20,973 bases of DNA from a virus. Positions 1,759-20,973 of the stretch are shown one piece after another. The stretch spans positions 1 through 20,973 of IMG/VR virus record IMGVR_UViG_3300017763_005647; one strand, written 5' to 3'. A program made the position numbers and the translations under genes. The notes beneath the pieces are model-generated. The model saw only the letters and a list, made by a program, of their open reading frames with translations. It ran no database searches and was not told where the DNA came from. Each line of letters begins with the position of its first letter. The first letter of the stretch is position 1.

Positions 1759-3363
1759 ATGTATAAGTCTGATAGAATTGTAATTGTTGGTGGAGGAACT
1801 GCTGGATGGTTTTCTGCAACAACTTTAAAGAGATTTTTTCCAAATAAAGATATTACAGTAATTGAAAGTCCAAAAGTACCTATTGTTGGAGTTGGTGAAA
1901 GTACATTAGCATACTTTACCACTTGGTTGGCTTTGATGGGTATAGATGAGAAAGAGTTGTTCAAATATACTGATGCATCATATAAACTAAGCATTAAATT
2001 TACAGATTTCTTTAAAAAGGATTATGGTGCATATCACTATCCTTTTGGAAGACCAAACACTCCAGAAGAATCTTTTGCTGGTCTGGGTATTGATGCATGG
2101 TTACTTAAAAAATCATTTTATCCAGAAACACGTCCTGAAGATTATTGTAGGACAATTTTTCCTGCTATGCAACTAATTGAAAATAATAAAATTAGTAAAA
2201 ATGAAAATGGAGAGTTTGGTGATTACGAATTCAAACTAGCACATGCATATCATTTTGATGCAACTAGGTTTGGAATTTTCTTGAGAGATCATTATTGCAA
2301 ACCAAGCGGAATCAAACATATTGCAGCAGAAGTTAAAAAAGTAGTATCTGGTGCGGATGGTATTGAAGAAGTTGTATTGGACGATGGTACAATCATTACA
2401 GGAGATTTATATATTGATTGTACTGGTTGGAAGAGTATGCTTCTTGAGGGTGAAATGGGTGAAGAGTTTATCTCATACAACCATTTGATTCCAAACAATA
2501 AGGCATGGGCAACTAAACTTCCATATGTAGATAAAGAAAAAGAGTTAGAACCATACACCAATTCAACTGCTATTAATAATGGATGGGTGTGGAATATTCC
2601 TCTTTGGAGTAGAATTGGAACTGGATATGCTTATTCTGATAAGTACGTTGATAAAGAAGACGCTCTTGAAGAGTTTAAAAAGTACTTGGTATCAGATAAA
2701 ATGATAGTTCAAGATAAATCTAGAGTAGAGGATCTTGAATTTAAAGATATTTCTATGAAGATTGGTATTCATAGAAGAAACTGGGTAAAGAATGTAGTTG
2801 CAATTGGTTTATCTTCTGGATTTATTGAACCACTAGAAAGCACTGGATTGTTCACAGTTCATGAGTTCTTAATGAAACTAGTTACATCTCTTAATAGAGG
2901 AGATTACACCCAGTTTGATATTGATACCTACAATATTTCTGTTAGAGAAATGTTTGATGGTATGTGCAAATTTGTAGCATTGCATTACTCACTAAGTCAT
3001 AGAACTGACACTGAATACTGGAGGGATGTCACAAGAAGAGAATATATGGGAGATTTAGTTGATAATAGAAGTCCTGGTTCTGATATGTTCTCAGATCTAA
3101 TTCTTCGGAAAATGGTAACTCATAGTCACCAAGCAGATTCAGGAACACATTGCATATGTAATGGTATGAATTATAATGTTCTGACTATAGAGAATATGAT
3201 TAAAGCAGGTTATTATCATTACACTCCACATATAGATGAAGTAAGAAATACAATTGATCAGATGATTCCAATCTGGCAAGAAAATCAAGCAAAATGGAAA
3301 GAAGAGGCAGATAAATGCCCAACCCTATACCAATACTTGAAAGATAATTTCTACAATCAATGA
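1759..3363 (+). CDS. Flavin-dependent tryptophan-halogenase family protein
   Basis: 534 residues, the usual length of PrnA-type halogenases. These use FADH2, oxygen and halide to make hypohalous acid, which a lysine passes to an aromatic substrate. Seen here: the FAD-binding GGGTAGW at residues 11-17, Lys76 in the DASYKLSIKF segment at the place of PrnA Lys79, the family signature WVWNIP at 276-281 that blocks monooxygenase activity, and the FIEPLESTG segment at 355-363 carrying the acidic residues near the active site. The key residues look intact, so it is probably active. No flavin reductase is seen nearby; the host may supply reduced FAD. Such genes are known in T4-like cyanophages, but to my knowledge without a proven substrate. 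It reads against its neighbours and ends in an ATGA overlap with the epimerase gene. A weak ribosome site precedes the ATG. Confidence 0.93.
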   Translation: MYKSDRIVIVGGGTAGWFSATTLKRFFPNKDITVIESPKVPIVGVGESTLAYFTTWLALMGIDEKELFKYTDASYKLSIKFTDFFKKDYGAYHYPFGRPNTPEESFAGLGIDAWLLKKSFYPETRPEDYCRTIFPAMQLIENNKISKNENGEFGDYEFKLAHAYHFDATRFGIFLRDHYCKPSGIKHIAAEVKKVVSGADGIEEVVLDDGTIITGDLYIDCTGWKSMLLEGEMGEEFISYNHLIPNNKAWATKLPYVDKEKELEPYTNSTAINNGWVWNIPLWSRIGTGYAYSDKYVDKEDALEEFKKYLVSDKMIVQDKSRVEDLEFKDISMKIGIHRRNWVKNVVAIGLSSGFIEPLESTGLFTVHEFLMKLVTSLNRGDYTQFDIDTYNISVREMFDGMCKFVALHYSLSHRTDTEYWRDVTRREYMGDLVDNRSPGSDMFSDLILRKMVTHSHQADSGTHCICNGMNYNVLTIENMIKAGYYHYTPHIDEVRNTIDQMIPIWQENQAKWKEEADKCPTLYQYLKDNFYNQ

Positions 3364-4154
3364 TTATAATCACTGGATCATCTGGATTCATTGGTAATCA
3401 TTTTATCAAACATTTAGATGGGAAACAAAATCTACTATTAGTAGATCAGAAGGATGCTTGGAGATTATTCAATAAATTTGATCAATGGAATGATGTCACC
3501 TTAATATTGCATCAAGGTGCAATATCCTCAACGACAGAAAAAGATTTACAAAAACTTTGGCATTATAATGTAGCATTTTCTTGTGCTTTACTTAATAAAG
3601 CACTTGAATATGAAATACCAATTAAGTATGCATCATCCGCCTCAGTCTATGGTAATACACAGGGAGAAATAAATCCTTTAAACCAATACGCGATATCAAA
3701 ATTACAGGTTGATTATACTGTATTGGATAATCTTGATAAGTTTGAATTAGTTCAAGGATTTAGGTATTTCAATGTATATGGGGAAGGTGAAGAAAATAAA
3801 GGAGATCAAGCAAGTCCAGTAAGTAAATTCACACAACAATCGAGAGAAACTGGAAAGATAAGACTCTTTGATGGATCAGATAAATTTTTAAGAGATTTTA
3901 TTTGCGTTGATGATATAGTAGATATTGTATTGAACAATGATGCTGGTAGTGGAATTTATGATATAGGTACTGCAAATCCAATTTCCTTTCAAGAGGTTGC
4001 AGAATTAGTTGCAAAAAAAGAAGGGAGCGAGATTGAACTCATTCCCTTCCCAGATCATTTAAAAGGAAAATATCAGACTTACACTTGCGCTGATATGAAG
4101 TGGATTAAAAATTATAAATTCAAATCTATGAAAGAATATCTTAATCTCCCCTAA
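3360..4154 (+). CDS. hldD: ADP-L-glycero-D-manno-heptose 6-epimerase (HldD/RfaD-like)
   Basis: 264 residues, against about 310 in E. coli HldD. It is an extended short-chain dehydrogenase fold: NAD(P)-binding GSSGFIG at residues 6-12, HQGAISSTTE (HldD has HEGACSSTTE), ASSASVYG, catalytic Tyr110-x3-Lys114, then RYFNVYGEGEENKGD with Lys147 matching the HldD lysine in its HKGS motif, and IPFPDHLKGKYQTYT near the end, which is highly HldD-specific. It should convert ADP-D-glycero- to ADP-L-glycero-beta-D-manno-heptose, the last step of precursor synthesis. The missing ~45 residues are mainly in the N-terminal half, after the first strands. Its ATG overlaps the halogenase stop (ATGA at 3360-3363). 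Its 3' end overlaps the convergent cupin gene by 14 nt. A related NDP-sugar epimerase is the alternative. Confidence 0.85.
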   Translation: MIIITGSSGFIGNHFIKHLDGKQNLLLVDQKDAWRLFNKFDQWNDVTLILHQGAISSTTEKDLQKLWHYNVAFSCALLNKALEYEIPIKYASSASVYGNTQGEINPLNQYAISKLQVDYTVLDNLDKFELVQGFRYFNVYGEGEENKGDQASPVSKFTQQSRETGKIRLFDGSDKFLRDFICVDDIVDIVLNNDAGSGIYDIGTANPISFQEVAELVAKKEGSEIELIPFPDHLKGKYQTYTCADMKWIKNYKFKSMKEYLNLP

Positions 4155-4491
4155 TAATTCTATAACTATCTTCATCAAAATGTTGTGTAGAAAATTCAAA
4201 TAATTCTGTATCTTCTAAAGCTATCATTTGATGCCTAAGTCCTCTGTAAATGTGATGTGTGTCACCCTTACAGAGGACTATTTCTTTGGATTGGATTAAA
4301 TCATCATCATCCGAATATTTTAGAATGATTTTTCCAGATTGAACATAAAAAGTTTCATCTTTCAGTTTGTGATAATGCCATGAGCACTTCTTTCCCTCTT
4401 CAAAAAAGAGAAGTTTGCCGCAATACTCATCAGTATTTACAATCCATTTTTCATGCCCCCATCCCTTAGGAACGTATTTAATTTTATCCAT
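4141..4491 (-). CDS. Single-domain cupin protein
   Basis: 116 residues forming one cupin barrel. Motif 1 is perfect: G33-x5-H39-x-H41-x4-E46-x6-G53. Motif 2 is G76-x10-H87, with Tyr82 in place of the usual Pro. His39, His41, Glu46 and His87 are the expected metal ligands. The opening KGWGHEKWI resembles the C-terminal isomerase part of type II mannose-6-phosphate isomerase/GDP-mannose pyrophosphorylase. Given its place after the heptose genes, it may isomerise, epimerise or bind a sugar phosphate, but the substrate cannot be read from sequence. The start at ATG 4489-4491 is fixed by an excellent ribosome site at 4497-4504. It is the last gene of the sugar cluster and meets the epimerase gene tail to tail. 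Confidence 0.85.
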   Translation of the reverse strand: MDKIKYVPKGWGHEKWIVNTDEYCGKLLFFEEGKKCSWHYHKLKDETFYVQSGKIILKYSDDDDLIQSKEIVLCKGDTHHIYRGLRHQMIALEDTELFEFSTQHFDEDSYRIIRGD

Positions 4492-4496
4492 TACAT

Positions 4497-4504
4497 TCCT
4501 CCTT
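4497..4504 (-). promoter_or_regulatory. Strong ribosome binding site of the cupin gene
   Basis: The minus strand reads AAGGAGGA, 5 nt before the ATG at 4489-4491, in the 24-nt gap after the HAD gene. The distal gene of the cluster therefore has one of the strongest initiation signals in the window, suggesting it is translated independently of the overlapping genes upstream. Confidence 0.75.
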
Positions 4505-4515
4505 AAGAGTTTTCT

Positions 4516-4830
4516 TTATTTAAAGAAATCAATATCACTAATTCCTTTATCATCAATATAATAATCTCCTGTGGGTTTACCCATATAAAGATGATGATAC
4601 TTACAACCCCAATCTTCCAGTTGCTTTTTTGTTAATTTATGCCACTGAATAGTTGCTTTTGATGGTGTAGGATTTTCACTCATTCCTCTAGCAGTAAAAT
4701 ACCAAATTTCATGCCCCTCATCATATAATTTGTTTATCCCATCAATTCTATCTAGAAATGGAACTGCTTCTTCATACTTTCCATATGTATTACTACAAAT
4801 AGTTCCATCAATATCAACAACATATTTCAT
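4516..4830 (-). CDS. Small HAD-family phosphatase
   Basis: 104 residues, a minimal HAD fold without a large cap. Motif I is DIDGT (nucleophile Asp6, acid/base Asp8), motif II is FTARG with Thr46, and Lys85 followed by YYIDDK with Asp93-Asp94 gives motifs III and IV. All catalytic residues are present. HAD proteins of this kind (YFTARG...MGKPTGDYYIDD) are common in sugar and capsule clusters. GmhB, the heptose bisphosphate phosphatase, is a HAD enzyme of about 190 residues. This protein is much smaller, but it lies directly after the heptose kinase and could remove the 7-phosphate of heptose 1,7-bisphosphate. That is an inference from context. It overlaps the kinase gene by 17 nt. Confidence 0.85.
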   Translation of the reverse strand: MKYVVDIDGTICSNTYGKYEEAVPFLDRIDGINKLYDEGHEIWYFTARGMSENPTPSKATIQWHKLTKKQLEDWGCKYHHLYMGKPTGDYYIDDKGISDIDFFK

Positions 4831-5599
4831 TTACATCATCCTCATTAAGTACATAAGTTCCAAAATGTGTTACAGCAATTGCTGCTGCTTTATTTGCATA
4901 TGGAATAGCACAATCAATGCTACCAAGTAAAAGATAGAAATGCACCAAAGCTGCTAGGAACGTATCACCAGCACCTGCTACATCAAAGACTGGTACCTGA
5001 ATACCAGGAAAAGATTTACCATTATAAGTACAACCTTCAGAACCCTTAGTAATAATTAAATTTGGATAATCTCCTTCTAATTCTTGTGCTTCTCGATCAT
5101 TGATTTTTATATAGGATTGTTTGGGTAGTCTACTTTTTTTACTATCAATAAAGACAGGACCCTCAAACCAGTCCACCAGTTCTTGTATTTTTTCTTCTGA
5201 AAGAAACCCTTTATTATAATCGGAGATAACCATAACATCAAAATTTTCTTTAGGTAAGTCCCACACAAATTCTTCTGCTTCATCATTCTCATCCAACCTC
5301 ATAATTTGTTGGTTAGACTTAGAATCTACATATCGAGTCTTGGTGATATTTGCCTCATGAGTCATCATATAAACATCGTCCCCAAAGGACATCAGGTTCT
5401 CTCTGACGTTGTATGCCATACCTTTGGCACTTTCTACCCTATCATAAACCATGACTGGCACAGGTGCTTCTGGACTGATCCTAGTAATCTTACCATAGAC
5501 ATATCTGTCTTTACAGGTGTCACCGATAAGGAGTACCTTGAATTGTTTGGGTTGTAGAATAGTCTCCTTGTCGATCAAAAAACCGAACTGATTTTGCAT
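4814..5599 (-). CDS. D-glycero-beta-D-manno-heptose-7-phosphate kinase (HldE N-domain-like, PfkB family)
   Basis: 261 residues, shorter than the roughly 320 of the E. coli HldE kinase domain. It has the HldE hallmark GDTCKDRYVYGKITRISPEA (residues 26-45; HldE has GD..LDRY.YG..SRISPEAPVP), the segment AKGMAYNVRENLMSFG matching GGAANVA.N..SLG, and the PfkB anion-hole motif VAGAGDTF with catalytic Asp212. It should phosphorylate D-glycero-beta-D-manno-heptose 7-phosphate at C1 with ATP. Its ATG at 5597-5599 lies 80 nt inside the upstream nucleotidyltransferase gene; a TTG at residue 8 is a weaker alternative. In E. coli the two domains are one protein with the kinase first; here they are separate genes in reverse order. 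Its 5' half is visibly more GC-rich than its 3' half. Confidence 0.87.
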   Translation of the reverse strand: MQNQFGFLIDKETILQPKQFKVLLIGDTCKDRYVYGKITRISPEAPVPVMVYDRVESAKGMAYNVRENLMSFGDDVYMMTHEANITKTRYVDSKSNQQIMRLDENDEAEEFVWDLPKENFDVMVISDYNKGFLSEEKIQELVDWFEGPVFIDSKKSRLPKQSYIKINDREAQELEGDYPNLIITKGSEGCTYNGKSFPGIQVPVFDVAGAGDTFLAALVHFYLLLGSIDCAIPYANKAAAIAVTHFGTYVLNEDDVNEICC

Positions 5600-5918
5600 A
5601 GTGTGAACCTACTACTTCTTTTCCTTTCCAGTCAGAACCGACCACCATTGTATCAGGTTTGATCGATTCCAGCAACTCTTCTAGTTCTGTCTTGGTGTCA
5701 AATATATGAACAACATCAACATACTTAATGGAAGAGAGTATCAGCAATCTATCGGATTGTGAAAAAATAGGTCTTTCAAGACCCTTCATCTCTGCTACCT
5801 TCCTATCGGAATCGATAGCAACAATGAGATAGTCTCCGAAAGACTTAGCGTATTCCAGGAGTTTGATGTGTCCAGGATGAAGCACATCAAAACATCCATT
5901 TACAAAAGAGATTTTCAT
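5520..5918 (-). CDS. Heptose-1-phosphate nucleotidyltransferase (HldE C-domain-like)
   Basis: 132 residues, the expected length for a stand-alone HldE2 or TagD-type enzyme. It has the nucleotidyltransferase HxGH motif (HPGH, residues 14-17) in NGCFDVLHPGH, then AIDSDRKVAEMKGLERPI, close to the HldE pattern NSD...LKG..RP, then GSDWKGKEVVGS and a terminal YSTTQTI matching the STT..I motif. It should transfer AMP to heptose 1-phosphate, giving ADP-D-glycero-beta-D-manno-heptose. A CMP transferase such as glycerol-3-phosphate cytidylyltransferase is the alternative, but the KG..RP segment and the adjacent kinase favour the heptose role. It starts in an ATGA overlap with the upstream YkgJ gene (5915-5918). 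It has higher GC than its upstream neighbours. Confidence 0.87.
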   Translation of the reverse strand: MKISFVNGCFDVLHPGHIKLLEYAKSFGDYLIVAIDSDRKVAEMKGLERPIFSQSDRLLILSSIKYVDVVHIFDTKTELEELLESIKPDTMVVGSDWKGKEVVGSHYAKSVRFFDRQGDYSTTQTIQGTPYR

Positions 5919-6361
5919 GACTTAACATTAAAAAAGTCTAAAAATTCTTTAGATCCAAGATGATTCCATCCACTATCAACTTGATATATCAATGGAGTAT
6001 CAGTTTTAATACAAAAATTTATAATCCAAGAAAGAACTTTTGTATCATATTTTTGACCTGTTTCTATAACTTTTAATAGTTGATATTCTTTATTTGCCCC
6101 CCACCTCTCTACATTTACAATTGCATTAATTTTGTTTGGTTTCATCCATTGTGGAAGAACTCCTTGACTCCATGCACATTGATATCCTTTGCAAACTTCA
6201 GGTCTTTCCTGATGTATTGTGCAATTTTTTTCTTCACACAAGAAGAAGCATGGTTTTCCTGGTTTAACATCATGTCCATGAACGTCACTTATTGATAACC
6301 ATTTGCAACATTCATTGCATTCACCACATTCCCTGAAGTCAGTTTGAAAATCCTTTTCCAT
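5915..6361 (-). CDS. YkgJ-like cysteine-cluster protein
   Basis: 148 residues. The N-terminal half carries the YkgJ/UPF0153 cysteine pattern: Cys12, Cys15, Cys18-Cys19, Cys38, Cys42, Cys47, Cys57 and Cys62, including C-x2-C-x2-CC, RPEVC and CAW. These proteins are predicted to hold zinc or an iron-sulphur cluster. The biochemical role is unknown, but members often lie beside glycosyltransferase or protein-modification genes. The C-terminal half (from about residue 70) is a plain alpha/beta domain with no recognisable motif. It overlaps the heptosyltransferase-like gene by 23 nt upstream and the nucleotidyltransferase by ATGA downstream, so it is part of the same coupled group. Confidence 0.82.
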   Translation of the reverse strand: MEKDFQTDFRECGECNECCKWLSISDVHGHDVKPGKPCFFLCEEKNCTIHQERPEVCKGYQCAWSQGVLPQWMKPNKINAIVNVERWGANKEYQLLKVIETGQKYDTKVLSWIINFCIKTDTPLIYQVDSGWNHLGSKEFLDFFNVKS

Positions 6362-7328
6362 TTTTTTTCAGAGCATTAGATTTCTTCATTTGTTTCTTTG
6401 GATCTATTTCAGATCCTATAATTGAAAAAATTTCTTCAAGTTGTTTATCATCAAACTTCATAGCACCATCATTCTTCCTATCACTCAATTCAGAATCAAC
6501 ACCTCCTATTCTAATTGGATTGTATGAATTTTTAACATTATTATTTCTATAGAAATTGAAATAATCTGGATAGGAAACATTTTTTTCAAAGGTAGATCCC
6601 ATAATAATTAAACCTGGTTTATCAAATGCTCTTGCAATATGTTGTCCCACACTATCACATCCAATAAAATAATCACATTCATTTATCAATGCCATGTACA
6701 TTCTTAAATTTCCTCCAGGAGGATTGAATGAATATGTATCTTTTGAAAACTGGTATATATCTGGTGAACCAAAATAAATTACAGTTACATGCTCAGAAAG
6801 ATGAGAAACTAGTTTTACATAGTCTTCTGGATACATACTCCTTCCAGAAGAATCTGTAAAGCAATCATTTTCAACCATTGCTGAACTACCATATGGTTGA
6901 AAAACAACTAATTTCTCTTTTTTGGTTTGATCTGTAATATTTTTGAGATTCGCTTTCATCTTGCGAGACTCATCATAACTTATATAGAGATTTGGTTTAT
7001 CCAAATCACTGTGATCTGTGGTATTATTGATTTCTTCATCGAAAGCTTCTGCCAAAGATAATTCTTGATTATAATATCCCCAACGATGATAAGGTTCTGG
7101 AGATACAAGAATATTATCTTTCACAAATAATTCAAATGAACCTTTTTGATTTATATCAAATGTTCTATCTTGAAGCACTGGATGACTCCAATAAAGATCA
7201 CACCACCCATGAATCAAAACTTTGAAATCATCATCTGGATTTAATCTTGCATACTTTTCCAGTGCTGGAATTGCTGTTACAACTCTTCCAGCTCCACCAC
7301 TAAGCAAAAATGTAGTATTCCTTTTCAT
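6339..7328 (-). CDS. GT-B glycosyltransferase, GT9/heptosyltransferase-like
   Basis: About 329 residues, the length of WaaC/WaaF-type ADP-heptose:LPS heptosyltransferases. The N-terminus has the expected GGAGRVVTAIPALEKYARLN start of the acceptor domain. The middle carries the strand LVVFQPYGSS that opens the donor domain. The motif IGCDSVGQHIARAFDKPGLI matches the GT9 pattern (G-x-D-S-G-x-x-H-x-A-x-x-x-x-x-P). It would transfer a heptose or similar sugar from a nucleotide donor, in the cytoplasm or at the inner membrane face. I use ATG 7326-7328 because it makes an ATGA overlap with the preceding gene; a GTG at 7338-7340 is possible. The link to the heptose enzymes downstream makes ADP-heptose a natural donor, though this is inferred. 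Confidence 0.82.
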   Translation of the reverse strand: MKRNTTFLLSGGAGRVVTAIPALEKYARLNPDDDFKVLIHGWCDLYWSHPVLQDRTFDINQKGSFELFVKDNILVSPEPYHRWGYYNQELSLAEAFDEEINNTTDHSDLDKPNLYISYDESRKMKANLKNITDQTKKEKLVVFQPYGSSAMVENDCFTDSSGRSMYPEDYVKLVSHLSEHVTVIYFGSPDIYQFSKDTYSFNPPGGNLRMYMALINECDYFIGCDSVGQHIARAFDKPGLIIMGSTFEKNVSYPDYFNFYRNNNVKNSYNPIRIGGVDSELSDRKNDGAMKFDDKQLEEIFSIIGSEIDPKKQMKKSNALKKNGKGFSN

Positions 7329-7963
7329 AATGTATTCCACTGATTAATAACGTTTTTAGCAATTTTTAGAGATAAATCTCTGTCTCCCGTACCAGTATGT
7401 ATAAGGTAATCACGATGCCATTTTTCCCAAGTAATACCCGTATATCTTAATCCATATTTTGCAAGATTATGAGATAAAGAGTATTCATCTATATCACCTT
7501 TCCTCACAATAGTGAGTTTTTCTCCATTCTCTGGTGAAATTGTTAATGGTTCCCATAAACAATGAGTTGATTTATAAGATACTACAGCATTTGTAACAAC
7601 ACCAATGTTTCTACCATCACGCATAAAATAATCACGATTGTAGTCATTAATTGCAAATTTATCTGATGCTGTATAGTTATCATTAAAAGCAACATGATGT
7701 TCTGGTATGATATCATGAACATCGGGGAATTGTGGATGAATCAAGATATCAGCATCAACCAAAAAATTTAGATCTGCATCTTTTCCATCTTCCCATACCT
7801 GAAGTTTTTCATAATTAATGTGCCATTCTGGGTATTTTCTTTCAGTGATTAGATTAAATTCTGCACCAATACGATCAGCATATGCCTTTATCGTTGGGTA
7901 TGTATAATACCACAATTCAGGAAAAAAATCATTAATGTAAACGCAATGAACTATTCTTTTCAT
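7325..7963 (-). CDS. GT-A-type glycosyltransferase
   Basis: 212 residues. It begins with a strand typical of nucleotide-sugar binding (KRIVHCVYIND) and has a D-x-D metal motif, Asp70-Ala71-Asp72, in FLVDADILIHP. The stretch YEKLQVWED just before it fits GT8/GT77-like enzymes, where a tyrosine or lysine precedes the DxD strand. The C-terminal part (ITWEKWHRDYLIHTGTGDRD) has histidines that could close the active site. Donor and acceptor cannot be told. It is the first gene of the tightly overlapped group running from 7963 down to 4141, separated by 20 nt from the orphan upstream. No good ribosome site precedes the ATG. Confidence 0.75.
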   Translation of the reverse strand: MKRIVHCVYINDFFPELWYYTYPTIKAYADRIGAEFNLITERKYPEWHINYEKLQVWEDGKDADLNFLVDADILIHPQFPDVHDIIPEHHVAFNDNYTASDKFAINDYNRDYFMRDGRNIGVVTNAVVSYKSTHCLWEPLTISPENGEKLTIVRKGDIDEYSLSHNLAKYGLRYTGITWEKWHRDYLIHTGTGDRDLSLKIAKNVINQWNTL

Positions 7964-9176: not shown

Positions 9177-10472
9177 TCAACTAAAACATCTAATTACGCC
9201 AGTGGCATGTCTGCCACTACCTCCACATACCCACCCACAATCAGGTCCTACTTGAACTGGACTGCACATTCTACTCTTACAACAAATACCTAGTTGACCA
9301 TAATCATTGTGACCCCACATCCACATTGCACAATCCTGATCAAATGCTAGACCACTATATCCAGCAAAACCATTCTGTCCCAGTTCTATCCATGTTTTAC
9401 TGCTGAAAATTTGAACTGGTGAAGATCTGGGGGCACTACTAGTATCTCCAAGTTCACAATGGGCATTGTATCCCCATCCCCACAGGGTGTTATCATTTTT
9501 TCTTGCATGAGTACCATGTGACATTGCACTAATTTCTATCCAGTTAGATCCTGGAATTTGAACAGGACACATTATATCTCCAGACCCCTGATTAATTCCA
9601 TTGGAACCATGCGAACCATGTCCCCATGACCATAATGTACCATCAGTTTTTAATCCATACATCCCATTACATCTAGTTTCAATACCAGTCCAATTAGTTC
9701 CTGGAATTTGTGTAGGAGAACTGAAGTGCGGACAGCTGCATGTAGTACAGGAACAACATGGTTGATAACATCCAGTATTGGTATTCATACAATTTGGACT
9801 GCAACAAGTTCCAGGATACTCACAACAAATACAACAAAGCCCTAATTGACCATGACTATTATGACCCCAAACCCACAAAGTTCCATCACATTTAATTCCA
9901 CCTGCAGAGTGACGTGTAGCTGAAACACATTTCCATGTATTTCCTCCAAGTTGAACTGGGCAGGCGTACCTACACCTACAACATCCAACACCTTCATCCC
10001 AGCAGCAACAACAACTAGTTTCAGTTAAACCTAACTGACCCCAGTTGTTATGACCCCACGCCCATAATGTACCATCCGTTTTCATTCCGAAAGACGTACA
10101 GTCTGAAGCAGACATGAAACACCAGTTGTTTCCTGGAAGTTGATTTGGTGATGACTGGGAGGTGCAACCACAATCACCTAATTGCGAGTGGTTGTTATAT
10201 CCCCATGCCCAACCAGTCCCATCTTGCTTTGTTGCAAGCATATGATGATTACCTATGGCAATATTATTCCAATTAGTACCTGGTACTTGATTTGGAGATG
10301 ATCTATAATTTCGTGTAGAATCAGCAAGTTCTCCATGACTATTATATCCCCACATCCAAAGTTGTTTATCACCAGGGTCTAGTGCTTTATACACACCAAT
10401 ACCACTTCGTGCTAAATCATAACTTTCTCCCAGTGTTAATGGTTTTTTCTTTATATTTTCGGATACTGCCAT
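9177..10472 (-). CDS. RCC1-repeat seven-bladed propeller protein A, cysteine-rich
   Basis: 431 residues. After an N-terminal segment (KKPLTLGESYDLARSG) come seven RCC1 repeats of the form W-x-WGxNxxGQLG...SSPxQxPGxxW...KxDGTLW, starting near residue 38 and continuing to the end, enough for one closed propeller. I count about 37 cysteines (over 8 percent). Most are in the outer loop between GQLG and the SSPVQ strand. In blade 3 the loop holds SCCCCW and GCCRCRYAC; in blade 4 it grows to about 40 residues with some 15 cysteines. Eukaryotic RCC1 binds chromatin, but phage and bacterial versions are more plausibly adhesins. No signal peptide. A late-promoter motif at 10501-10508 precedes it. Probable receptor-binding or virion surface protein; function not proven. 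Confidence 0.85.
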   Translation of the reverse strand: MAVSENIKKKPLTLGESYDLARSGIGVYKALDPGDKQLWMWGYNSHGELADSTRNYRSSPNQVPGTNWNNIAIGNHHMLATKQDGTGWAWGYNNHSQLGDCGCTSQSSPNQLPGNNWCFMSASDCTSFGMKTDGTLWAWGHNNWGQLGLTETSCCCCWDEGVGCCRCRYACPVQLGGNTWKCVSATRHSAGGIKCDGTLWVWGHNSHGQLGLCCICCEYPGTCCSPNCMNTNTGCYQPCCSCTTCSCPHFSSPTQIPGTNWTGIETRCNGMYGLKTDGTLWSWGHGSHGSNGINQGSGDIMCPVQIPGSNWIEISAMSHGTHARKNDNTLWGWGYNAHCELGDTSSAPRSSPVQIFSSKTWIELGQNGFAGYSGLAFDQDCAMWMWGHNDYGQLGICCKSRMCSPVQVGPDCGWVCGGSGRHATGVIRCFS

Positions 10473-10500: not shown

Positions 10501-10508
10501 TATTTATT
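10501..10508 (-). promoter_or_regulatory. T4-type late promoter motif (AATAAATA)
   Basis: The minus strand reads AATAAATA, 7 of 8 matches to the T4 late consensus TATAAATA. It overlaps the TAA stop codon (10504-10506) of the TPR-glycosyltransferase. Transcription would start near 10495, giving a leader of about 23 nt before propeller A. The motif is AT-only, so chance occurrence is possible in this AT-rich genome. Confidence 0.45.
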
Positions 10509-11712
10509 CGAGTTCATCATCTAAAAACTCATATAACTGATTAATAGTTTCTGACCAATCATTATATGCACTCTGCTTGATAACTTTAACAGAATTATAC
10601 CATTCCAAATCTTCACATGACCAAATAAAGTATGGAACAAATGGAGGTAAAACAATTGTGGGTAAATTCATAGCACCTGCCAAATGAGCTGTACTTGTAC
10701 AACTTGTAATAAGCAAATCTAAACCACTAAAAATTGAATAAGTATCTTGCCAATCATTTATTAACTCAGAACAATTGGGAAAACTATCATCCTCTTCATC
10801 AATTTGAAGAGAAAATAATTGACCATATTTTTTTAAATCATAAAAATATTCTTTTGATATTGTTCTGAATTGATCGTGCTCAAATTCTGGATTTCCTTTC
10901 CACCGAATTCCAATTTTTCTTTTTCCATTTGCTAGCATATCCATTTGTCTTACAATATAAGGTTCGCAAATACTGTCAATATATGGAAATGTAACTTTAT
11001 CTTTTGGAGAACTTACATCAATAAAATTTGGTAGCGACATTGCTGGAACATATGCATCATACACAATATTTTCAATACAGTGTTTCGGATATGCATTATA
11101 TCCTGCATTAACTAAAAGTCTAAGTAATGACATATCACATACTACGATTAAATCATTACATTTAGTTTTTAAATAATTTGCCCATCTTAAAAAAATAAGT
11201 TCATCTCCTATACCACCCTCAAGACATAACATAAGAGTATTTACATGTTCACCATCCCATCTTTTAGATTCGTCAAGAGACCCTACTTCAATTAACGAGT
11301 ATTCATTTCCCCAAACTCTACAATCTTTTCCAAATGCAAGATGATGAAATCCCTTTTTAAAATTACCGTTTCTTAAATAATGCCAACCCTTATTAAACCT
11401 TATTCTTGAATCATTGCTATCATCTAATGATTCATATATTTTTAATGCGTCATCAAAATTCCCATATGCATTTTTATATAATGCATAATCTAACAATACA
11501 TCAGAATTTTTGTCCTCAACCTCTTCCATTAATTGTAAAGCCTTTTCTACTTTACTTGCATAATAATAACATTTAGCTAGATTTGGTTTGAGATAATTTG
11601 GAAAATTATCAATTGTTTCTAAACATTCTATAGCTTTATCAAATTCTTTATTTTCAAAATACTCATGAGCTTGATTATTTACATCTGATAGATGACGATC
11701 AGTTTCTTTCAT
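10504..11712 (-). CDS. TPR protein with C-terminal GT-B glycosyltransferase domain
   Basis: About 402 residues. The first 130 or so form about four TPR-like helix pairs (for example AHEYFENKEFDKAIECLETI and YGNFDDALKIYESL). The rest is a GT-B fold of the kind found in bacterial TPR-glycosyltransferases: CLEGGIGDELIFLRWANYL (usually EQGLGD...RY), GIRWKGNPEFEHDQFRTI, and the donor-site motif TSCTSTAHLAGAMNLPTIV, which resembles GT9 and O-GlcNAc-transferase-like proteins. TPR domains in such enzymes bind protein acceptors, so a fibre protein is a reasonable target. I chose ATG 11710-11712 with AAAGGA just upstream; ATG 11724 or TTG 11733 are alternatives. It overlaps the hydroxylase gene by 14 nt. 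Confidence 0.83.
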   Translation of the reverse strand: MKETDRHLSDVNNQAHEYFENKEFDKAIECLETIDNFPNYLKPNLAKCYYYASKVEKALQLMEEVEDKNSDVLLDYALYKNAYGNFDDALKIYESLDDSNDSRIRFNKGWHYLRNGNFKKGFHHLAFGKDCRVWGNEYSLIEVGSLDESKRWDGEHVNTLMLCLEGGIGDELIFLRWANYLKTKCNDLIVVCDMSLLRLLVNAGYNAYPKHCIENIVYDAYVPAMSLPNFIDVSSPKDKVTFPYIDSICEPYIVRQMDMLANGKRKIGIRWKGNPEFEHDQFRTISKEYFYDLKKYGQLFSLQIDEEDDSFPNCSELINDWQDTYSIFSGLDLLITSCTSTAHLAGAMNLPTIVLPPFVPYFIWSCEDLEWYNSVKVIKQSAYNDWSETINQLYEFLDDELE

Positions 11713-12277
11713 AAATCCTTTCATCTGTTTCAATCCAAGTTACTAATGTATATCTTGCACCCTTTGTCACAGGGTGTACTTGATGGGTAAATTCATAATA
11801 TGAAGGAAATGCTATGATCATTCCCTTTTTTGGTTTTATTGTAATACCAAAGAAATTAAATTCTAATTCACCTCCTTCATAGTCATCATTTAAATACGCT
11901 AAAATTGATACATCTCTATCAGTTTTTCGAACAGGTTTTCCATCAACCCAATCATCAGCATCATTGTGTATATCATATTTTCCACCAACTGGATATTCTA
12001 AAAGTTGTGGTGCTTCTACTTTTACAACATTCTTCTTATAAATTTTACGATACTCTTGCTCATACAAATTTGTAACAGATGTTTCTATTTTTTTTGCTAC
12101 ATCTTGTGGTATAGGAAACCAATTCGTGTTTCTATACTCCATATTAACATCTGTAGTCTCATCATCATAACCAACTAAAGCTGGAGATGATTCTCCAACT
12201 ATCAGTTGTTTTGTTAATTCTATAAATGGTTCTGGCAATGCATCAGGAATGATCTTAATATAATCGTAGTAATTCAT
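11699..12277 (-). CDS. 2OG-Fe(II) oxygenase, prolyl-4-hydroxylase-like
   Basis: About 192 residues from ATG 12275-12277 (a TTG at 12293-12295 is the alternative). The double-stranded beta-helix motifs are present: His104-x-Asp106 in YDIHND, distal His165 in FTHQVHPVTKG, and Arg175 ten residues later to bind 2-oxoglutarate. The segment VSILAYLNDDYEGGELEF is typical of P4H-type enzymes. It should hydroxylate a protein proline (or a related side chain) using oxygen and 2-oxoglutarate. Such genes are common in T4-like cyanophages, usually without a known substrate. Here it is directly coupled to a TPR-glycosyltransferase and flanked by propeller genes, so sequential hydroxylation and glycosylation of a structural protein is possible. 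Confidence 0.88.
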   Translation of the reverse strand: MNYYDYIKIIPDALPEPFIELTKQLIVGESSPALVGYDDETTDVNMEYRNTNWFPIPQDVAKKIETSVTNLYEQEYRKIYKKNVVKVEAPQLLEYPVGGKYDIHNDADDWVDGKPVRKTDRDVSILAYLNDDYEGGELEFNFFGITIKPKKGMIIAFPSYYEFTHQVHPVTKGARYTLVTWIETDERIYERN

Positions 12278-12324: not shown

Positions 12325-13566
12325 TTATTGAGTGATAACACAACGACAATCATCATCTACAAGTCTCCGTCCACATGTAAAGAGCCAAGTTCCCTCTCTA
12401 CCACCTAACACATATTTCCAGTTACATCCTGGTAATTGAATTGGTGAGGAGAAATCCATTCCGCTACAATGAAATCTTTGGTTTGTAGTATTATGTCCCC
12501 ATCCCCACGCTGTACCATCATTTCTAATTGCAACAACATGACGACAACCAGAATCAACATATATCCAACACCCTGGAACTTGAACTGGTGAGGATTTGTT
12601 AGACGTACAATTTATACCTAACCGTCCATGATTATTATGTCCCCATGCCCAGAGAGTATTATCATTTTTAATTCCATACATCGCTTGTTGACCTTGACCA
12701 CCATCTGTTACATGTATCCAGGTTCCTGGAAGTGTTATGGGGGAGGAATAATTACTAGTATTATTATTACCTAATTGTCCATGGTTATTATGTCCCCAAA
12801 CCCAGTGACTTCCGTCAGTTTTCTTTCCAACTACTGGATATCCACCTTTAATGAAACACCAAGATCCACCAACTTGTACTGGTGAGGAATAGTAAGTAGT
12901 GTTATGAACTCCCAATTCTCCATGAGCACTATACCCAAATGAGTAAGCACAGTTACCAGCTCTAATTGCAAAATTTTGATGATAACCACCGTGAGCTTTT
13001 ATCCAATTAGTTTGAGTGCCAACTTGCAGCTTACAACTGTAAGATTGGTTTGTGTATGTACATCCTGGATGCACACACAATTGACAACCCGAAGAACACC
13101 ATAATCCTGCTTGACCATGGTTTCCATACCCCCATGTCCATAGTGTGCCATCACATTTAACTCCAATTCCGGATTGATGACCTAATGCTACATCGCACCA
13201 ATCCCCTGGAATTTGTGATGGTGATGATCTATGCCAACCACCTCTCTGCTCCATCCCAAGTTTATTATGACTATTTCCACCCCATGCCCAGAATGTTCCA
13301 TCAGATTTTTTTACAACTATTGCACAAACAGAACTATTCTTACCAGATCGATGTCGCCAGTCATTACCCTCTGCAGATGGTTGTGGATAACCTACATTAT
13401 CAGGGCATGTAGAACACCTACCAAATTGTCCATGATTACCTTTACCCATGCGATACATCTGCTCTTCATCAGAGTCTGTTGCACCATAACTCCAACAATC
13501 AGCAGCTAATCTATGATAAGCATCATCTAGAGTAAAAGTTCCTTTTTTTTGCTTAGAAACTGGCAT
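12325..13566 (-). CDS. RCC1-repeat seven-bladed propeller protein B
   Basis: 413 residues with the same plan as propeller A: an N-terminal segment KQKKGTFTLDDAYHRLAAD, then seven RCC1 repeats. Repeats 5 and 6 are the most regular (WVWGHNNHGQLG, WAWGHNNHGRLG). Repeat 3 has a longer loop with five cysteines (LWCSSGCQLCVHPGC...SYSC). I count 21 cysteines, about 5 percent. Repeat 1 and repeat 7 are degenerate, as expected where a propeller closes. After the last blade a short tail (RRLVDDDCRCVITQ) remains. A ribosome site (AAGG) lies upstream of ATG 13564-13566. Likely a virion surface or receptor-binding protein. It shares a 39-bp identical segment with propeller C. Confidence 0.85.
   Translation of the reverse strand: MPVSKQKKGTFTLDDAYHRLAADCWSYGATDSDEEQMYRMGKGNHGQFGRCSTCPDNVGYPQPSAEGNDWRHRSGKNSSVCAIVVKKSDGTFWAWGGNSHNKLGMEQRGGWHRSSPSQIPGDWCDVALGHQSGIGVKCDGTLWTWGYGNHGQAGLWCSSGCQLCVHPGCTYTNQSYSCKLQVGTQTNWIKAHGGYHQNFAIRAGNCAYSFGYSAHGELGVHNTTYYSSPVQVGGSWCFIKGGYPVVGKKTDGSHWVWGHNNHGQLGNNNTSNYSSPITLPGTWIHVTDGGQGQQAMYGIKNDNTLWAWGHNNHGRLGINCTSNKSSPVQVPGCWIYVDSGCRHVVAIRNDGTAWGWGHNTTNQRFHCSGMDFSSPIQLPGCNWKYVLGGREGTWLFTCGRRLVDDDCRCVITQ
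12766..12804 (-). repeat. 39-bp identical repeat, copy in propeller B
   Basis: Identical base for base to 15100-15138. It encodes WVWGHNNHGQLGN in blade 5 of protein B and in blade 3 of protein C. The two genes are otherwise clearly diverged, so the perfect match suggests recent recombination or gene conversion between propeller genes. Confidence 0.85.
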
Positions 13567-14373: not shown

Positions 14374-15558
14374 TTAACAGCATACTATTGCATAGCTACT
14401 ATCACCAAATGCACTTATTTCAGTCCAACAAGTTAGTGCTCCAATGATATAAGGTGATGATCTAGGCGTAATACAACCTACACCCATTTGCCCATCAGCA
14501 TTATTTCCATGACCCCATATTCTATTCTCACAATCTTTAAGCAGTGTATGGTTTGCACCAGTAGCAACTGATACCCAACGTCTAGTTCCAGGAATTATAG
14601 TTGGAGAAGATCTGTGGCAACAGCAGTTTACGTGGTTACCCAATTGACCAAGACGGTTAGAACCCCAACCATATGCATCACACTCATTATTAATAGCCAT
14701 TGAATGCTCTCTTCCAGCACTTATATCAACCCAGTTAAATCCCTGGATTTGTACTGGTGATGATCTATGAGTTGTTGATCCTGAATCACGACATGCTCCA
14801 AGTTGTCCGAATGTATTACTTCCCCATGACCAAAGAGTTCCATCTCTCTTTGTTGCAAGAACATGTTCTCCACCACTATCAAAAGCATACCAATTGTTTC
14901 CTGGAATTTGTACTGGTGATGATCTATCAATTATATTATTTCGACCCAATTGTCCGTAACAATTAATACCCCAAGCCCACATTTGCCCATTGCAGACTTT
15001 TAAAGCATAAGAACTTTGATGCCCTGCGGTTACACAATCCCAATTACATGCTGTACCAACCTGAATTGGGGTAGATTTATCATCCTTAAGAGGATCTTGA
15101 TTACCTAATTGTCCATGGTTATTATGTCCCCAAACCCACAAAGTTCCATCGGTTTTAACTCCCAATGTATGATATCCACCAGCTGCAACTCCTTTCCAAC
15201 ACCCTGGAACTTGAACTGGTGAACACCTAGGAGTTGCTGTATCATCTCCCAATTGTCCATGATTATTTTTACCCCATGTCCATAAAGTGGAATCAGATTT
15301 GATTGCTGCAGCATGAAAATCTCCTCCAGCAATTCTCACCCACTGACTAGATGGTATTTGTACTGGAGAAGATCTTCTTATAGTAGTACCATCGCCAACT
15401 TGTCCGTCACTATTTTGACCCCAACCATACAAGCAACCTGGAACATCTTGAAGATATTCGTTTCCCCATGTGCCAGTACATAACTGACCCATGGCATCTT
15501 CCAGACTCCAAGAACCTTTATCTTGATATGATTTTAAACAATCATTTCTGATATCCAT
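14374..15558 (-). CDS. RCC1-repeat seven-bladed propeller protein C
   Basis: 394 residues, the most regular of the three. The N-terminal segment YQDKGSWSLEDAMGQL matches those of A and B. Seven repeats follow, each close to 50 residues, for example WTWGKNNHGQLGDDT...RCSPVQVPGCW...KTDGTLW. I count 19 cysteines (4.8 percent), including NCCCHRSSP in blade 6 and a terminal Cys-Cys. The loop before SSPVQ differs in every blade while the frame is fixed. Start ATG 15556-15558 behind a G-run ribosome site. It sits directly downstream of the fibre genes, which supports a virion role. Bacterial proteins of this type are annotated as alpha-tubulin suppressor-like, a label that says nothing about function here. 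Confidence 0.87.
   Translation of the reverse strand: MDIRNDCLKSYQDKGSWSLEDAMGQLCTGTWGNEYLQDVPGCLYGWGQNSDGQVGDGTTIRRSSPVQIPSSQWVRIAGGDFHAAAIKSDSTLWTWGKNNHGQLGDDTATPRCSPVQVPGCWKGVAAGGYHTLGVKTDGTLWVWGHNNHGQLGNQDPLKDDKSTPIQVGTACNWDCVTAGHQSSYALKVCNGQMWAWGINCYGQLGRNNIIDRSSPVQIPGNNWYAFDSGGEHVLATKRDGTLWSWGSNTFGQLGACRDSGSTTHRSSPVQIQGFNWVDISAGREHSMAINNECDAYGWGSNRLGQLGNHVNCCCHRSSPTIIPGTRRWVSVATGANHTLLKDCENRIWGHGNNADGQMGVGCITPRSSPYIIGALTCWTEISAFGDSSYAIVCC
15100..15138 (-). repeat. 39-bp identical repeat, copy in propeller C
   Basis: The partner of 12766-12804, about 2.3 kb away and in the same orientation. Recombination between the copies would swap blades between proteins B and C and delete the gene between them if it occurred within one molecule. 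Confidence 0.85.
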
Positions 15559-18887: not shown

Positions 18888-19384
18888 TAGGTTAAAACCT
18901 GCAAATCAAAACTTGTGACTACATACTGTGGTTGCGTTAAACAATCAAAAGCATAAGATAATGCTACACCAAAAGCATCAGTTGTTACTGAGTTTAAATC
19001 TCCATAGTCACCAGTAGGAAATTCATCAACATCAACAGTTATTGTTGCAACACCTACACCGCTATTAATTGCAGTGATCCTCGGTCCTACTATATTTATC
19101 GTTGTAACAGCGGCACCGACTTGAGTACCTTCTTCCTGAATGAAGATTTCTCCGCCGCTGCCTGATGCGGAAACTCCTGTTAGTTGAGATCCATCACCAA
19201 AAAATCTTAATGCAGTGACAGTACCAATAAAATTTCCATCACCTGCAACATCTAACTTATATTCAGGAAATGTTACACCAATACCTACATTAAAAGTTCC
19301 TCCTGCACCAATAGCAATATTTTTATTACTATCATGAACAGATACTAACGAAGCGAATTGTGATATTTCCCGATTATTCGCCAT
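18887..19384 (-). CDS. Short tail-fibre-like protein
   Basis: 165 residues. It starts MANNREISQFASLVSVHDSNKNIAIG. The pattern VGIGVTFPEYKLDVAGDGNFIGTVTALRFFGDGSQLTGV is a classic phage-fibre stem module, a variant of the LGIG...LDV.G......A..F.GDGS.LTGV repeat. It ends in a beta-rich domain of about 75 residues (AVTTINIVGPRITAINSGVGVATITVDVDEF). No poly-glycine linker. It is smaller than its neighbours and could be a collar or hinge segment. A GATAAATA motif at 19460-19467 lies upstream, with a leader of about 70 nt. Confidence 0.82.
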   Translation of the reverse strand: MANNREISQFASLVSVHDSNKNIAIGAGGTFNVGIGVTFPEYKLDVAGDGNFIGTVTALRFFGDGSQLTGVSASGSGGEIFIQEEGTQVGAAVTTINIVGPRITAINSGVGVATITVDVDEFPTGDYGDLNSVTTDAFGVALSYAFDCLTQPQYVVTSFDLQVLT

Positions 19385-19459
19385 AGTTATAATACTTACA
19401 TATAGTATTTAGTAGTTTAATTATATGCAGATAAGAGATTTAAATTATCCAATCTTGAA

Positions 19460-19467
19460 TATTTATC
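19460..19467 (-). promoter_or_regulatory. T4-type late promoter motif (GATAAATA)
   Basis: GATAAATA on the minus strand, 7 of 8 to the late consensus, overlapping the TAA stop codon (19463-19465) of the upstream fibre gene. The predicted start near 19454 gives a leader of about 70 nt before ATG 19384, longer than for the other motifs. The gap 19385-19462 holds nothing else recognisable. Confidence 0.5.
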
Positions 19468-20973
19468 GAGCATTGGACTGTGCGCCATACAAGTTAAATG
19501 CTGGCGCTTTTGCCCATGCACAGTAGAGATAATAATCACCCGAACCACCTCCGGCGGCACCTTCATTAATTTCACCTACATTTGTTCTTATTTTAAATCC
19601 ATTACTTAAGAGATCAATATCAAAGGTGCCACTGTTAACATTATTACCACGTTTTCCCTCTTCAGCAGTGTTGTTAGCATAGAGTGGATTGTGGAATGGA
19701 TTGGACTTATCAGTTTCATCTGTAAAGATACACCATGATGTTGTGTTTGCTACATGGACGTATGACTTAATCCATAAGATAGCAGGTCTGAATCCGAGTT
19801 CTACAAAATTAGCATCGTTTCCACCCTGAGACAAATAGTCTCCAAATTTCTGTAGTCCAGGAACATCTGCCCAAGAATAGTAGATTACACTATCAGAAGC
19901 ATCATTATAAAATCCAGCATTAAATGTAAATGCGCTCGATGTTGGTGCAACGTTACCCCAAGGATCCTGACTATCAACAGCAGCAGTAGTAAATTGCAAT
20001 CTGTTTGAACCACCAGGGGTCGCATCTTTATGATAAATGTCCCAATTATAAGTATTAGTCAAAGACTTAGCCATGATAAAATCGGGAGTTTTTCCGAGTC
20101 CATGTGGGATACTAATATTACCTGATGCCGTACCAAGAGTAGCTTTAACTATGCTAAATCCTTGCTTGGTTCCAACAGAGGCACCAGTAGCAGCAATTGA
20201 TGGAACATTAGGAGGTGTCACTCCAGAGTCAACAAGTATTTTCCCATCAACTTCCACAGCCCACAACCTACCATGGGTAGATCCAATATCTGTCAGTGCG
20301 ATTTCGGATAATGAGGAATCTGAAATAGTGTACCAAACAGGACTATTAGTAACTGCTATATCAGTTCCATTTACAGAAACTTGTCCAGAACCACCACCAA
20401 TACCTGAAGCGTAAATACGTAAAGAACTATTTACCGTAATTGCTGAGTCAGGAGCCCACTTAACAGTTGTATTGCTAGCTGAATTGCTTGCATAATTGCT
20501 CATATCACCATTAAATGCTCTTGATCCATTATCAACACCTCCAGTAGAACCTGTTGCACCCCATTTACTTGTATAGGTGCCAGTTGTGTAAGCTTCACCA
20601 TTCTTACCACCAATATTCATTCCAACATCAGAGGCACTTGCATAACCTACATCATCAATATTATAAACATGAGAACCTTCAACTGTTAAAGTAGCGGCAT
20701 TTGCACCACCAGATAATGCAATTTGTTTTGAAATTACGATCTGTGCTGATCCATCGGTATCATATTGTGACCCCGTACTACTCCAATTAATTCCATCATC
20801 AGAAGTCCAAATATACTTATTAGCAGTGCTTGTAGAAACTGACCACTTTACAACTTTTCCACTTGAAGACTTGTACACCTGTGCTGAGTTTGCACCCATT
20901 GTTCCTCCAGGATGATTTTGGGGAGTTGTATATGATCCAAAAGTAAACCCAGTTGTATTATATGATCTGCTAG
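19463..20973 (-). CDS. Large tail-fibre-like protein, 5' end outside the window
   Basis: At least 502 residues. The first ATG (20897-20899) is unlikely to be the true start. The frame stays open for 24 further codons to the right edge, and they read like fibre protein (RSYNTTGFTFGSYTTPQNHP), with no stop. The C-terminal half (SIPHGLGKTPDFIMAKSL...YNWDIYHK, then LGFRPAILWIKSY, then GDYYLYCAWAKAP) matches a domain common in marine phage fibre proteins, pairing a TPDF(I/M) strand with a terminal (Y)xAWA strand; I recall it under a DUF label but cannot verify it. The central part has a GSRAFNGDMSNYASNSA carbohydrate-binding-like segment. Likely a virion adhesin, translated late. Confidence 0.83.
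   Translation of the reverse strand, partial: SRSYNTTGFTFGSYTTPQNHPGGTMGANSAQVYKSSSGKVVKWSVSTSTANKYIWTSDDGINWSSTGSQYDTDGSAQIVISKQIALSGGANAATLTVEGSHVYNIDDVGYASASDVGMNIGGKNGEAYTTGTYTSKWGATGSTGGVDNGSRAFNGDMSNYASNSASNTTVKWAPDSAITVNSSLRIYASGIGGGSGQVSVNGTDIAVTNSPVWYTISDSSLSEIALTDIGSTHGRLWAVEVDGKILVDSGVTPPNVPSIAATGASVGTKQGFSIVKATLGTASGNISIPHGLGKTPDFIMAKSLTNTYNWDIYHKDATPGGSNRLQFTTAAVDSQDPWGNVAPTSSAFTFNAGFYNDASDSVIYYSWADVPGLQKFGDYLSQGGNDANFVELGFRPAILWIKSYVHVANTTSWCIFTDETDKSNPFHNPLYANNTAEEGKRGNNVNSGTFDIDLLSNGFKIRTNVGEINEGAAGGGSGDYYLYCAWAKAPAFNLYGAQSNAR

Follow-up and report, generated by a model that had tools for sequence, protein, structure and literature searches.

Heptose sugars build Gram-negative envelopes and give ADP-heptose, which is sensed by animal immunity. 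The usual entry enzyme to these sugars is GmhA, and the ADP-β and GDP-α heptose branches, which use different kinases and transferases, have only the GmhA and GmhB steps in common. In cyanophages, T4-GCs 304, 305, 307, and 308 were reported in 2010 to co-occur in three phages as lipopolysaccharide (LPS) genes of unknown function (PMC3037559). Here we describe such a gene cassette in virus record IMGVR_UViG_3300017763_005647 of IMG/VR, a T4-like cyanophage sequence of 20,973 bases that was analyzed over its whole length (the window). Because the co-occurrence was already reported, the cassette as such is known in substance and is not new to cyanophages. The new part is the isomerase step via a cupin. 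This cupin (T4-GC 307) is probably a non-orthologous sedoheptulose-7-phosphate isomerase, as judged by sequence comparison, because of its co-occurrence with heptose kinases, its fusions to heptose enzymes, its complementarity with GmhA, and its D-lyxose isomerase residues.

Five genes are present at 3360-5918. A preliminary description had listed four of them (epimerase, HAD phosphatase, PfkB kinase, and nucleotidyltransferase), all located as it stated, and had left out the cupin at 4141-4491, inside the same interval. The cupin gene lies between the epimerase and HAD genes and runs at its 3′ end into the former. The pathway had been called complete except for the isomerase. This is not supported: the cassette includes a cupin whose active-site residues are of sugar-isomerase type and which appears to replace GmhA elsewhere.

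The cupin metal ligands H39, H41, E46, and H87 are invariant, as are K26, K44, E99, D108, and R111. In the D-lyxose isomerase of Thermofilum (TsLI), the sugar and metal ligands are K62, H75, H77, K86, E88, H143, E156, and D163 (PMC8378251), which align to cupin K26, H39, H41, K44, E46, H87, E99, and D106, respectively. The cupin thus has the HxH, E, and H metal ligands and the catalytic Lys/Glu of D-lyxose isomerase. Among 24 diverse sequences, only D106 of the aligned residues varies (D/E), next to the invariant D108. An AlphaFold2 (AF2) model of the cupin is confident (pLDDT 96), and Foldseek places it near the CapF cupin domain and D-lyxose isomerases and, further down, near the Thermococcus kodakarensis phosphomannose isomerase; many other cupins are also among its structural matches. 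The fold by itself is not diagnostic; the active-site residues say more. Cupin epimerases of RmlC or FdtA type were unmatched among the Pfam and NCBIfam results. In public annotation, the cupin family (PHROG 7851) is named ‘cysteine dioxygenase’. In open-licence papers, cupins were nowhere linked to ‘phosphoheptose isomerase’ or to heptose together with GmhA, and our literature searches found no role for the cassette cupin proposed in any paper.

The cupin occurs in 35 records of our phage collection. Each of them also encodes a protein resembling heptose 7-phosphate kinases, with either of two unrelated folds. All cyanophage records with an HldE1-like kinase (31 of 31) carry the cupin. In the remaining four cupin records (Bellamy twice, SynMITS9220M01, and AG-345-E15), the cupin gene directly follows that of a GHMP kinase and is itself followed by that of an HddC-like transferase. 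This kinase is HddA-like (NF049969, 3e-85 and 7e-83 in the two tested), and the AG-345-E15 version is 75% identical. With the TIGR00441 hidden Markov model (HMM), GmhA was not found in 17 of 18 phage records with cupin or HAD. The exception is SynMITS9220M01, whose GmhA belongs to a second heptose cluster that also has a GHMP kinase of its own and a fusion of HAD and transferase. This natural fusion (19027-19779 of that record) joins a short HAD to an HldE2/TagD-like transferase and adjoins the true GmhA. No protein with the SIS-domain fold of GmhA occurs among the window proteins scanned, and the cupin fold differs from it. The cupin is found on more than 500 viral contigs. At four viral loci (L185, L195, L164, and L145), it stands beside nonulosonate-type (KdgD, PseF), RmlC-like, or unassigned genes with no heptose kinase.

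A genome scan for the cupin gave 63 loci. Three Woesearchaeota genomes (L109/L205, L206, and L207) have it fused to the C-terminus of the HldE1 kinase; the L109/L205 fusion scores 341.9 bits with TIGR02198 (cut-off 345). At another Woesearchaeota locus (L111), GmhB, cupin, and HldE2 lie in a single frame of 504 amino acids (aa). HldE1-cupin, HldE2-GmhB, and HldD-like proteins are encoded by three adjacent genes at L206, which therefore name all steps except that of GmhA. GmhA was not found in the Woesearchaeota genomes carrying cupin fusions.

Complementarity between cupin and GmhA was examined among the HldE2-bearing members of 118 genomes of a Binatota-type class, 141 of a nanoarchaeal class, and 151 of picocyanobacteria. 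GmhA occurs in 1 of 28 such genomes with the cupin versus 64 of 82 without it. By group, the ratios are 1/22 versus 56/71 in the Binatota-type class, 0/5 versus 5/7 in the nanoarchaeal class, and 0/1 versus 3/4 in picocyanobacteria (Cochran-Mantel-Haenszel p = 6e-11, a value that ignores shared ancestry). The Prochlorococcus single-cell genome AG-409-P03 has the cupin, HldE2, HAD, and kinase, and GmhA was not found in it.

Three of the other cassette proteins are best matched by ADP-heptose families, so that the preliminary assignment of the set stands for these. The best NCBIfam match of the epimerase is heptose_epim (TIGR02197, 3.9e-63), the next real rival being GalE (8.5e-12). Its score of 213.5 bits is below the equivalog cut-off of 274.6 and far above all other families. 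Among solved structures, it matches HldD (1eq2, 4.2e-44). Its S93, Y110, K114, and K147 align to HldD S116, Y140, K144, and K178, which we take to be the catalytic residues, and all 28 aligned phage-type epimerases have them. The kinase best matches rfaE_dom_I (TIGR02198, 1.7e-39). It is a shortened protein and reaches 135.8 bits of the 345 required. It also matches HldA (4e84, 8.8e-18), sharing the RISPEAPVPV and GAGD motifs, and was not taken as a ribokinase, which scores more weakly (5.3e-12). For the nucleotidyltransferase, the best match is rfaE_dom_II (TIGR02199, 2.6e-36; 124.6 bits, cut-off 181.5). The CDP-glycerol enzyme TagD is disfavored at 1.8e-19 and 70 bits. The best solved relatives of this protein are cytidylyltransferase-type proteins. 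Supported by these comparisons, the three would be ADP-heptose-type HldD-, HldE1-, and HldE2-like enzymes. Grouping of the epimerase and nucleotidyltransferase with other nucleotide-sugar families, named beforehand as evidence to the contrary, was not seen in the NCBIfam matches.

The HAD is the part of the assignment that did not stand. GmhB was unmatched in NCBIfam, the EcbF-BcbF model gave 29.6 bits, and HAD-IIIA gave 18.4, making the protein a member of the EcbF/BcbF-like group with a weak match to these capsule phosphatases. Its nearest solved relative is AfhF (9iqw), a phage D-arabinose 1,5-diphosphate phosphatase, followed more weakly by GmhB (4pnh). GmhB identity is ruled out by both HMM and fold searches. 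The catalytic residues D6/D8, T46, K85, and D94 are invariant, and the predicted chemistry fits a sugar 1,n-bisphosphate phosphatase in general, yet not GmhB. This family (PHROG 1238, T4-GC 306) is annotated publicly as ‘phosphoheptose isomerase’ in hundreds of T4-like phage records; we reject the name, as the protein belongs to the HADs and lacks a SIS domain.

The hosts appear to offer little of this pathway, in line with the preliminary description. Within the Prochlorococcus/Synechococcus family, GmhA is unmatched at E ≤ 1e-10 in 118 of the 151 genomes, and HldE2 exceeds 110 bits in only 5. LPS of the marine Synechococcus strains WH8102 and CC9311 is reported to be heptose-free (PMC4515613). 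With hosts mostly lacking GmhA and HldE2, the phage would therefore need to supply the route in full, in keeping with an isomerase within the cassette.

We propose the following route. The cupin would isomerize sedoheptulose 7-phosphate to D-glycero-D-manno-heptose 7-phosphate, a conversion whose local stereochemistry is that of fructose 6-phosphate to mannose 6-phosphate, the reaction of small cupin phosphomannose isomerases. By homology, the PfkB protein would then phosphorylate O1, the short HAD would take off the 7-phosphate, the HldE2-like enzyme would add AMP, and the HldD-like enzyme would invert C6. As a guess, phage glycosyltransferases would probably move the product to virion fibers or the host envelope. 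The cupin would thus be a non-orthologous replacement of GmhA, in use in some archaea and bacteria too. We regard the whole ADP-heptose route with the cupin as its isomerase as fairly probable.

Several observations weigh against this route. Within 8 kb, a heptose kinase is missing at about 8 of 80 viral cupin loci, among them L185 with its nonulosonate-type genes. A stand-alone match of GmhA size is found in 5 of the 28 cupin genomes. The Binatota contrast may be a single evolutionary event, because nearly all cupin genomes there share a fused HldE. At the Binatota locus tested, the cupin adjoins a GDP-mannose 4,6-dehydratase (Gmd), a neighbor also compatible with a cupin acting as mannose-6-phosphate isomerase, or with GDP-heptose as the product. 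(This short-chain dehydrogenase/reductase, SDR, had been a candidate heptose epimerase before proving to be Gmd; our in-house epimerase HMM is too broad for bacteria.) In addition, many of the cupin's structural neighbors are cupins other than isomerases, the scores behind three of the four homology assignments are below curated equivalog cut-offs, and the closest solved HAD relative works on a pentose bisphosphate. The dehydratase neighbor and the loci with missing kinases, together with the structural match to the small archaeal phosphomannose isomerase 7zvy, would suit an ADP-heptose pathway in which the cupin is otherwise employed, as an NDP-heptose modifier, phosphomannose isomerase, or sugar-binding protein, and the isomerase comes from the host or another gene. 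We consider this unlikely, since genomes in which GmhA was not found have cupin fusions to GmhB, HldE1, and HldE2, and since the cupin is complementary to GmhA in three groups. A host-supplied isomerase is disfavored by the picocyanobacterial genomes without a GmhA match, and a phosphomannose role by the lack of any mannose-activation gene in the phage cassettes examined.

The kinship of the HAD to AfhF, and the presence of the same HAD family in T4-like phages, raise the alternative that the kinase, bisphosphate phosphatase, and nucleotidyltransferase make a nucleotide-activated pentose such as D-arabinose, with which DNA or surfaces would be glycosylated, as happens in T4-like phages that arabinosylate. 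This seems quite improbable, as a C6 epimerase with HldD catalytic residues is sensible for heptose only and the GmhB fusions and HddA/HddC neighbors indicate heptose. Moreover, a candidate isomerase with a SIS domain is involved when RB69 arabinosylates (PMC6024577), and the cassette has none. We hold it to be very improbable that the cassette yields no heptose and persists in these large cyanophage genomes as functional relics or stuffer DNA, or that its product is another NDP-sugar. Stuffer DNA was raised for these LPS genes by Sullivan et al. in 2010 (PMC3037559), but the catalytic residues are invariant across diverse phages, the gene order is kept in many lineages, and the viral contigs with the cupin are numerous.

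Returning to the isomerase reading, it is somewhat likely in its broadest form that the cupin founds an unrecognized sedoheptulose-7-phosphate isomerase family, of a fold unrelated to GmhA, in marine phages, DPANN archaea, Binatota, and other bacteria. The family would feed both the ADP-β and GDP-α branches and would make phages self-sufficient for activated heptose in hosts mostly without the heptose pathway. If so, a second, unrelated isomerase would close a gap in the heptose pathway of many viruses, archaea, and bacteria, two misnamed families (the ‘phosphoheptose isomerase’ phosphatase and the ‘cysteine dioxygenase’ cupin) would be corrected, and cyanophage LPS genes whose function has been unknown since 2010 would gain a definite, testable product.

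Table 1 Cassette genes and a possible product user in the window
Feature	Position	Strand	Basis
HldD-like ADP-heptose 6-epimerase, short SDR, 264 aa	3360..4154	+	TIGR02197, PDB 1eq2, catalytic residues
Cupin, 116 aa, T4-GC 307, proposed sedoheptulose-7-phosphate isomerase	4141..4491	-	Cupin_2 4.6e-8, residues, AF2, fusions, GmhA complementarity
Short HAD phosphatase, 104 aa, T4-GC 306, PHROG 1238, proposed heptose 1,7-bisphosphate phosphatase	4516..4830	-	catalytic residues, AfhF
PfkB kinase, HldE1-like, shortened, 261 aa, T4-GC 305, proposed heptose 7-phosphate kinase	4814..5599	-	TIGR02198, HldA 4e84
HldE2-like nucleotidyltransferase, 132 aa, T4-GC 304	5520..5918	-	TIGR02199 versus TagD; 92% identity to S-CAM1
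GT9-like (heptosyltransferase-type) glycosyltransferase, weak assignment, possible product user	6339..7340	-	PF01075 2.3e-4, slightly below cut-off

The 3′ end of the transferase gene overlaps the kinase gene by 80 nucleotides (5520-5599, minus strand) in a different frame, likewise in Synechococcus phage S-CAM1, to which the DNA of 4795-5918, covering the kinase and transferase genes, is 84% identical. The kinase may start at 5599, or it may be coupled or frameshifted. About a dozen sequenced cyanophages have the cassette (T4-GC 304-308). The same genes occur in S-CAM1, S-CAM3, P-SSM2, S-SSM7, P-TIM68, S-SM2, and Sf-FS3, and without the epimerase in Sf-CH5 and S-T4. Because the divergent layout is identical in S-CAM1, S-CAM3, and P-SSM2 and the cassette recurs in at least 10 phage lineages, it is not a chance arrangement.

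The cassette is flanked by tail-fiber-like genes and glycosyltransferases, including the GT9-like protein (Table 1), for which no solved relative was found; nor was one found on trying a BAHT-type heptosyltransferase for the downstream GT9-like proteins. At 10504-11733 (minus strand), a TPR domain is followed by a possible GT9-like region without a clear family match, possibly a protein glycosyltransferase. Three Cys-rich paralogues with RCC1-like ‘WxWGHNxHGQLG’ repeats (9177-10472, 12325-13566, and 14374-15558, minus strand) lie among glycosyltransferase, 2OG-Fe(II) oxygenase, and tail-fiber-like genes and may be adhesins. On the other side, a PrnA-like tryptophan halogenase gene (1759-3363, plus strand) overlaps the epimerase start by 4 nucleotides, and S-SSM7 likewise has a halogenase next to the same cassette. 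T4-type late promoters (TATAAATA, at most one mismatch) gave 68 matches versus 66 expected by chance, which is uninformative, and an Rfam search of the window found nothing.

Among known systems, the closest is the T4-GC 304, 305, 307, and 308 (plus 306) set of P-SSM2, S-SM2, and S-SSM7, with the same five genes in S-CAM1 and S-CAM3. Public records label its HAD and cupin with the two names questioned above. Cyanophage SynMITS9220M01 (PMC7378029) also has heptose genes and the cupin. There, the true GmhA is beside a GHMP kinase, and the cupin is in the other cluster, between the HddA- and HddC-like genes. Families of the ADP-heptose (Hld/Gmh) pathway best match the phage kinase, adenylyltransferase, and epimerase, but the phage set is without GmhA, its HAD is outside the GmhB family, and its small kinase and small transferase are separate and stand in reversed order. 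Finally, the cupin sugar isomerases (D-lyxose 7nzo and 2y0o, L-ribose 5avp, and T. kodakarensis phosphomannose 7zvy) share with the phage cupin the fold, the four metal ligands, and the K26/K44/E46/E99 pattern, whereas the phage cupin is only about 24% identical to them and its proposed substrate is heptose/heptulose 7-phosphate.

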